Source: Akkermansiaceae bacterium (lineage in GTDB: Bacteria; Verrucomicrobiota; Verrucomicrobiia; Verrucomicrobiales; Akkermansiaceae). Taken from it: a stretch of DNA of 35,414 nucleotides. Of this stretch, positions 34,788 through 35,414 are shown in pieces. The notes beneath the pieces were generated by a model. The model searched no databases. It had not been told where the DNA came from and worked only from the letters and a program-made list of their open reading frames with translations. Numbering within the stretch: position 1 is the stretch's first letter; every line of letters starts with the position of its first letter. The stretch covers positions 1-35,414 of the forward strand of contig CAIVSK010000149.1 in assembly GCA_903908495.1 (NCBI GenBank), written 5' to 3'. Both the position numbers and the translations under genes were made by a program.

Positions 34788-35138
34788 CGGTTCAAATGAC
34801 GCCCGTGTAACCAACACCGGCCAGGTGACTCAAATCAAGCAGCCCCACCGTGGGGTTCTACATTGATCCTGAGGGTATGACTCCCTCCCTCCGCACACAA
34901 GCGAAAAATCCACTGATTTTCGCCGCAAACACCAGCCACAAACAAGCTTTGCGGCTGTTGGCACATGCAACAGTCACCGCCTCATCCAGCGCAAGATCCT
35001 CCCAGCCGCCCCCACAGGCATGCGCGGCAAGCGAAGAGCATGTTGGAGATCGCTCGCGACAAATTTTAACACTGAGGCACCCTTTGCCGCAATCAGGGCT
35101 TGCCGGAGCGGCCAAGCGCCGTATCATCCGCTCCAGCC
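34788..35138. other. Non-coding stretch between glgA and the tRNA-Leu half
   Basis: No convincing gene. It holds the glgA upstream region, a CCCCA/TGGGG hairpin (34843-34855) and a 7-bp stem GCGAAAA/TTTTCGC (34901-34923). The tRNA promoter lies at the right end. A 115-codon frame on the minus strand (34858-35205) crosses the tRNA and lacks any family signature. Confidence 0.5.
35100..35127 (+). promoter_or_regulatory. Promoter of the tRNA-Leu gene
   Basis: TTGCCG (35100-35105), 16 bp, TATCAT (35122-35127). The tRNA starts at 35139, 12 bp past the -10, a reasonable distance for a tRNA transcript with a short leader. This supports the tRNA having once been a normal gene at this place. Confidence 0.5.
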
Positions 35139-35178
35139 GCCGGGATGGCGAAATTGGTAGACGCACTTGATTTAGGAT
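35139..35178 (+). tRNA. 5' half of tRNA-Leu (UAG), cut off after the anticodon loop
   Basis: GCCGGGA (acceptor 5' strand), TGGCGAAATTGGTAGACGC (D arm with the class-II leucine spacing) and CTTGA-TTTAGGA (anticodon stem and loop, anticodon TAG) are all present and correct through the first base after the loop. The expected 3' anticodon strand TCAAG, long variable arm, T arm and TCCCGGC acceptor strand do not follow, and I did not find them in the remaining 236 bases. The gene is therefore interrupted at its anticodon region. Confidence 0.75.
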
Positions 35179-35414
35179 GTATTGCAACTCGTTCATAATA
35201 AGCATGTTACGACCGAATATAGCCTGTATTGGCCGTTATTGGCCATCAGTATTTTGAACCATTTTGCCAGTTGGAACCACGGTGGCAATCTGTTTGTCAC
35301 CATTTGTCACCACTAGTTCCGTTAGACAGTCAGTTAGACAGTGGTTGACATGCCAACACCGGCATGGACACGCCAACTGATTCGCCGCGCACCGAACTAG
35401 CCCCCTCCCCTCTC
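35179..35414. other. Candidate attachment-site region with paired direct repeats
   Basis: Right after the tRNA break the DNA becomes AT-richer. It contains three pairs of short direct repeats: TATTGGCC at 35227-35234 and 35237-35244; TTTGTCACCA at 35293-35302 and 35303-35312; GTTAGACAGT at 35321-35330 and 35333-35342. Paired arm-type repeats beside a tRNA core are typical of integrase-binding regions of mobile elements. An open frame from ATG 35364 (MDTPTDSPRTELAPSP) runs off the window edge and is too short to judge. Confidence 0.4.

Follow-up and report, generated by a model that had tools for sequence, protein, structure and literature searches.

The window, by which we mean the whole stretch of DNA that was analysed, is 35,414 bases long and represents one entire contig (G000:C149, one of 432 in an assembly of 6.19 Mb), so that no reading beyond its end is possible. 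Near this end lies the 5′ half of a tRNA-Leu(UAG) gene, which agrees to 97.5% with the first 40 of the 83 positions of an intact tRNA-Leu(UAG) (E = 1.4e-16; Table 1). No whole tRNA was found in the window by ARAGORN. A sequence-only reading had described a lone half gene broken at the anticodon loop, and this description is borne out. The promoter that it had assigned to the half corresponds to a promoter-like site recognized by consensus match only, and the scanned stretch of the window holds three such sites compared to 0.5 expected in shuffled sequence. We read the half as the native one, apparently displaced by an island. The sequence upstream of it differs from the island leader described below, according to a comparison of upstream regions, and base 35178 may be derived from the element rather than from the tRNA.

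Table 1. Features at the 3′ edge of the window (positions are those of the whole contig).
Feature	Position	Strand	Basis
Promoter-like site of the presumed native 5′ half (TTGCCG, 16 nt, TATCAT)	35100..35127	+	consensus match only
tRNA-Leu(UAG) 5′ half, positions 1-40/83	35139..35178	+	sequence match to intact tRNA-Leu(UAG)
Anticodon loop TTTAGGA; anticodon TAG	35171-35177; 35173-35175	+	read from sequence
Junction: variable TG followed by TATTGCAACTCG (outermost 12 bases of the excisionase-side island end)	35178..35191	+	register compared by eye
Non-coding island end, excisionase side, with putative arm-type repeats (sequence-based)	35180..35363	+	homologous ends in relatives, repeats, motif
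Direct repeat pair TATTGGCC	35227-35234 and 35237-35244	+	read from sequence
Tandem pair TTTGTCACCA, 100%	35293-35302 and 35303-35312	+	repeat search
Direct repeat pair TCCGTTAGACAG / TCAGTTAGACAG, 92%	35318-35329 and 35330-35341	+	repeat search
HTH_17 excisionase-like gene, first 17 codons MDTPTDSPRTELAPSPL, cut by the contig end	35364..35414	+	homologues in relatives

The 235 bases that follow the broken tRNA gene on its 3′ side, up to the end of the contig, belong to the terminus of a genomic island whose family has many copies in this genus and, in relatives, carries a tyrosine integrase at the opposite end. The excisionase-like gene that starts there was assigned through Pfam HTH_17 on one relative and PHROG 66 on a consensus-like sequence of relatives. 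All three paired direct repeats that had been noted past the break are present, and their interpretation as integrase arm sites gains support from the motif TGGYGACAA, which appears paired at both ends of the islands: TGGTGACAAA, the reverse complement of TTTGTCACCA, fits this motif, and the motif is also paired at the starts of integrase genes. At least two copies occur in 22 of 23 excisionase ends and in 20 of 22 integrase starts (from 23 of the 28 junctions and 22 of the 30 integrase loci treated below), compared to 21 of 846 windows drawn from these loci, a set that includes the ends themselves; the choice of the motif followed inspection of the sequences. Arm-type sites thus probably lie near both ends of the islands.

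The last 231 bases of the window match places in 14 of the 73 genomes of the genus, G000 included, with at most six places per genome and, apart from the window itself, identities of 71–94%. The second island end of the window's own genome, on C123, is diverged (76%). A scan with the excisionase-like protein returned 34 loci, which are titled Akkermansiaceae and other Verrucomicrobia MAGs, with some under other titles such as Victivallales, Prosthecobacter or Akkermansia muciniphila. Viral contigs contain four relatives of this protein that are 36–76% identical over parts of it, and a search of a phage collection gave 15 matching records, the ten listed being 24–26% identical. Compared by eye, most readable junctions share one register, in which the seven bases of the loop are followed by two variable ones, by 12 further bases and then by TTCATAA or similar. 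Three islands have both ends on a single contig: a Lys island of about 11.4 kb in G026:C242 and, judging from position and tRNA identity, two Arg islands in G018:C11 (about 58 kb) and G091:C71 (about 6.7 kb); among the contigs examined there is no Leu(UAG) island with both ends on one contig, its ends lying on separate contigs. Among the cargo genes are those of type I restriction systems (G018 and G026) and one for a TIR-domain protein (G029). The Lys(CUU) island of G026:C242 (L142, 31703-43135) carries a restriction gene between its ends; no integrase match was found on that contig, and this island was perhaps moved by the integrase of another one. A module composed of DUF6431, a large serine recombinase and two RepB/ParB-like genes recurs behind the island end in G001:C47 (L084:651-5173) and G029:C510 (L096:10167-14279), as identified by Pfam, while in G018:C21 (L095:7121-11234) the two genes looked at were a match to the serine recombinase and a QueC gene behind it.

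We compared 28 excisionase-side junctions with respect to the tRNA half that they adjoin. A 3′ half is abutted by 23 of them and a 5′ half by three, and two are without a tRNA. The 3′ halves stand in reverse orientation and belong to Arg(ACG) (9), Lys(CUU) (4), Tyr(GUA) (3), elongator Met (2), fMet broken at the T loop (2), Leu(AAG) (2) and Leu(CAG) (1). All three 5′ halves are Leu(UAG): the window, G078:C370 and G078:C343, the last a degraded copy that lies within a 90-kb contig and matches at 90% over 40 bases. Two of these three junctions come from G078, a bin of 12.6 Mb that is possibly mixed. The tRNA piece ends at the anticodon loop in 24 of 26 cases and at the T loop in the remaining two (fMet), where the distant relative L192, counted both among the 23 3′ halves and among the 24 anticodon-loop pieces, has its tRNA piece about 50 bases away from the assumed junction. 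The breaks of fMet at the T loop by islands of this family are those of G077:C450 (L148) and G086:C265 (L149). The 28 junctions exclude partial ends with no readable junction (G089:C248, G089:C90, G077:C635, G026:C222, G029:C57, L189 and L197), loci with no end match (L187, L188, L190, L193, L194, L196, L198 and L199), short matches such as G018:C6, G026:C9, G001:C27, G006:C383 and G023:C12, the second pieces of G006:C454 and G086:C265, and contigs duplicated under two names; by position, L176 appears to be the same as G078:C143, and L189 the same as G078:C199. The mobile element suspected at the edge of the window is supported as such, but it is not a single element: it belongs to a multicopy family, and most of the members examined are classical and adjoin a 3′ half.

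Which enzyme inserts these islands? In the relative G078, contig C120 contains a tyrosine integrase gene (PHROG 1, E = 3.7e-18; the Pfam Phage_integrase match of this incomplete query is below the cut-off), which lies upstream of an intact tRNA-Leu(UAG) in divergent orientation and is seemingly broken near its end. When used as a query against 15 genomes, it detected 76 places in 14 genomes, and the 30 of these that were returned as loci were checked for a neighbouring tRNA. A whole tRNA is near the integrase in 22 of the 30 loci and near none of the other eight. The integrase follows the 3′ end of the tRNA on the same strand in 21 of the 22, and only at the Leu(UAG) of G078:C120 is it divergent and upstream of the 5′ end. 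The 21 same-strand loci belong to Lys(CUU) (7), Arg(ACG) (5), Met(CAU) (2, fMet by sequence), Leu(CAG) (2), Ser(UGA) (2, both with distant integrases of about 30% identity), Leu(AAG), Phe(GAA) and Tyr(GUA) (1 each). Coordinates place divergent integrase pieces on the 5′ side of Leu(UAG) in three further contigs, G036:C109, G086:C145 and G078:C370. The integrase and the second copy of the core to which the sequence-only reading had pointed were thus found in relatives, while this contig contains neither. In the window's own genome a tyrosine integrase stands beside tRNA-Lys on C137, and none was found adjoining the Leu(UAG) 5′ half.

The leader of tRNA-Leu(UAG) in G078:C120 is shared by five of 15 other Leu(UAG) upstream regions (G036, G006 over about 53 bases, G089, G086 and G078:C370) and is absent from the other ten, including the window and G078:C343. 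Of 16 regions upstream of Leu(UAG), 15 contain a CTTGC element on visual inspection. The integrase beside Leu(UAG) is broken in G036 and G086, and none was found beside it in G006 and G089; in all four genomes the island leader is retained upstream of the tRNA gene. In G078:C370 the order is integrase N-terminus, 5′ half and excisionase end, as in an attP or a tandem array. The own genome has a mirror image of this arrangement at a contig end (C10, L269), where an excisionase end, a Met(CAU) 3′ half and an integrase start follow one another in an attP-like manner; the integrase match contains an internal stop, and a tandem array would give the same order.

Taking together the observed junction, the multicopy family, the bias in side, the divergent integrase at the intact tRNA-Leu(UAG) of a relative and the integrase tree, we consider it about 85% probable that what lies at the end of the window is the attachment junction on the excisionase side of a tyrosine-integrase island, inserted into tRNA-Leu(UAG) by crossover in the anticodon loop and belonging to a branch that carries a 5′ half with leader and displaces the native 5′ half. 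Because the divergent integrase is located upstream of intact tRNA-Leu(UAG) in relatives, the 5′ half and its leader appear to come from this branch. The Leu(UAG) branch would carry these two parts beside its integrase, and integration in the loop would join the island 5′ half to the host 3′ half, giving a restored gene. The native 5′ half and its upstream sequence would stay behind at the excisionase end, as is seen in the window, whose own island probably has the same 5′-half-carrying layout. The earlier suggestion of an element with the 5′ half as its core fits what is found in relatives, namely the Leu(UAG) 5′ junctions, the divergent integrase and the shared leader. Around the island leader of G078:C120 the promoter scan gave no site, which counts against a simple promoter claim, and for this reason we infer, rather than observe, that the restored tRNA-Leu(UAG) is expressed from the island leader.

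The junction in the window could also have arisen by a classical insertion, in which a 3′ half was carried, followed by an inversion between two attachment sites that placed the excisionase end on the 5′ half. The own genome contains other family ends (C123, C137 and C10), so that sites for such an inversion may be available, and its two Leu(UAG) halves are located on two contigs with different neighbours. However, another genome (G078) has two junctions of this kind, the integrase-side leader is combined with a 5′ half in five genomes, and three chance inversions would be needed, every one of them at Leu(UAG). We therefore regard an inversion as improbable. An assembly chimera, in which a repeated island end was glued onto the tRNA half, would be conceivable at a distance of 235 bases from the contig end in a genome with a second, if diverged (76%), island end; it is still less probable, because the register matches that of other junctions and because a Leu(UAG) 5′ junction is also present in G078:C370 and in the interior of G078:C343, a contig of 90 kb.

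Insertion by the large serine recombinase instead of a tyrosine integrase is very unlikely. Its presence behind the island ends of G001:C47 and G029:C510, with DUF6431 and two RepB/ParB-like genes, made it a candidate, but in neither contig is it at the island edge, it was found at E 1e-20 in five of 41 genomes and not in the own genome, and 22 of 30 tyrosine integrase loci have a whole tRNA next to the gene. This candidate was dropped once the tyrosine integrase had been found beside restored tRNAs. Although a position just past the anticodon is a usual place for introns in tRNA genes, a tRNA split by a group I intron, which the sequence-only reading had kept as an option, can practically be dismissed, since no Rfam family, the intron models among them, reaches the gathering score in the window, and the sequence past the break is an island end that is also found beside many different tRNAs.

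The preferred reading, an island branch that brings its own tRNA 5′ half, implies a change of side relative to the classical members of the family. In a tree of 29 integrases, clustering mostly follows the tRNA that is targeted. The three Leu(UAG) rows, two of which cover at most half of the tree columns, fall within a clade of 12 (91/95) and inside its 97/91 subclade. The other members of this clade with an assigned target use Lys(CUU) or Lys(UUU) on the 3′ side (L257 is a Lys(UUU) 3′ end by eye; L263 has no assigned target). The Leu(UAG) rows do not form one clade: G086:C145 groups with three Lys rows (89/89), and the fork that joins both Leu(UAG) groups is weak (84/77), so that one flip, two flips or a flip back are all possible.

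A comparison of anticodon arms points in a similar direction. The Leu(UAG) arm of G036, compared with the reverse complement of the Lys(CUU) arm, agrees at 12 of 17 positions when read forward, which is the top score of 43 forward-read arms, and at 10 of 17 in the backward reading; leaving aside Lys(CUU) itself, there are four reverse-read arms with scores equal to or better than that of Leu(UAG) against the Lys arm, and the comparison is therefore suggestive only. From these sequences, the Leu(UAG) branch may descend from a Lys-targeting ancestor that flipped strand on the anticodon arm, which is pseudo-palindromic. More generally, we give about even odds to the idea that pseudo-palindromic arms, by virtue of this very property, let an integrase switch to a tRNA on the opposite strand and capture a 5′ half with its leader. 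Through this capture the island would take over the transcription of an apparently single-copy tRNA gene, and since the leader is kept where the integrase is broken or was not found, the island edge would have been permanently incorporated into the tRNA gene of the host.

Mobile elements that supply the front of their target gene are known from SXT-type elements, which replace the start of prfC. As the Leu(UAG) branch appears to do, they bring a new 5′ end of the target gene; the branch differs from them in using a tRNA gene, which is broken within the anticodon loop. Genomic islands that target tRNA genes through tyrosine integrases, with a class that uses the anticodon loop, were reportedly treated by Williams in 2002. 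As far as the available parts of PMC8371274 and PMC4383910 describe the anticodon-loop class, it resembles the relatives studied here in having a tyrosine integrase at the restored tRNA and a displaced fragment at the other end, a break in the anticodon loop of seven bases, arm-like sites that occur in pairs, an excisionase-like gene and several tRNA identities within one integrase family. It differs in that the Leu(UAG) branch appears to carry a 5′ half and a leader, whereas its closest integrase relatives carry 3′ halves. The use of symmetric tRNA arms by integrases has been described (PMC8371274), as have tRNA gene fragments left by islands (PMC9897764).

Islander contains 3760 islands with 3′ tDNA fragments and 159 with 5′ fragments (159 of 3919; PMC4383910). 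The displaced piece in the latter is the 5′ end of a tRNA gene, as in the window, and these 159 islands mean that 5′ displacement is already known. The new part is the change of side among close integrases. The accessible Islander text (PMC4383910) makes no mention of such a switch, and no title among the literature matches listed refers to it or to these islands of Verrucomicrobia. If this reading is true, close integrase relatives hold both modes, replacement of the back half and of the front half, together with a sequence reason for the switch, and the evolution of integration-site choice becomes testable. The same reading would reveal a route by which a mobile island becomes the source of a tRNA gene's leader, and some solitary 5′ tRNA halves could be accounted for in this way.

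What remains of tRNA-Leu(UAG) in the own genome is one 5′ half, that of the window, and one 3′ half on C69. Neither tRNA hits nor pattern and DNA searches revealed an intact tRNA-Leu(UAG) in the own assembly, and the integrase end of the window's island was not found there either. On the upstream side of the window, the comparison with the Leu(UAG) loci of G036, G006, G018 and G026 gave no DNA match other than the tRNA, and the starch-synthase-like neighbour has relatives at 51–65% in 27 of 43 other genomes searched. G089:C416 was rejected as a Leu(UAG) locus, as its match is a weak one of 24 bases and the sequence is, by eye, a different one. Downstream of its 3′ half, C69 is syntenic with the region downstream of the intact gene in G036 (83% over 914 bases). 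Upstream of the 3′ half, C69 has an element-like end that differs from the island end of the window, and because of this different end a second event must be assumed. This was presumably a second insertion at the restored gene, and an intact tRNA presumably lies on an unassembled stretch. An element-like end of this other type is seen at the Leu(UAG) 3′ halves of both C69 (L127:3123-3415) and G019:C341 (L140:1237-1526), the two ends being 77% alike over 296 bases. The loop in C69 resembles that of Leu(AAG), as if a Leu(AAG) element had used Leu(UAG).
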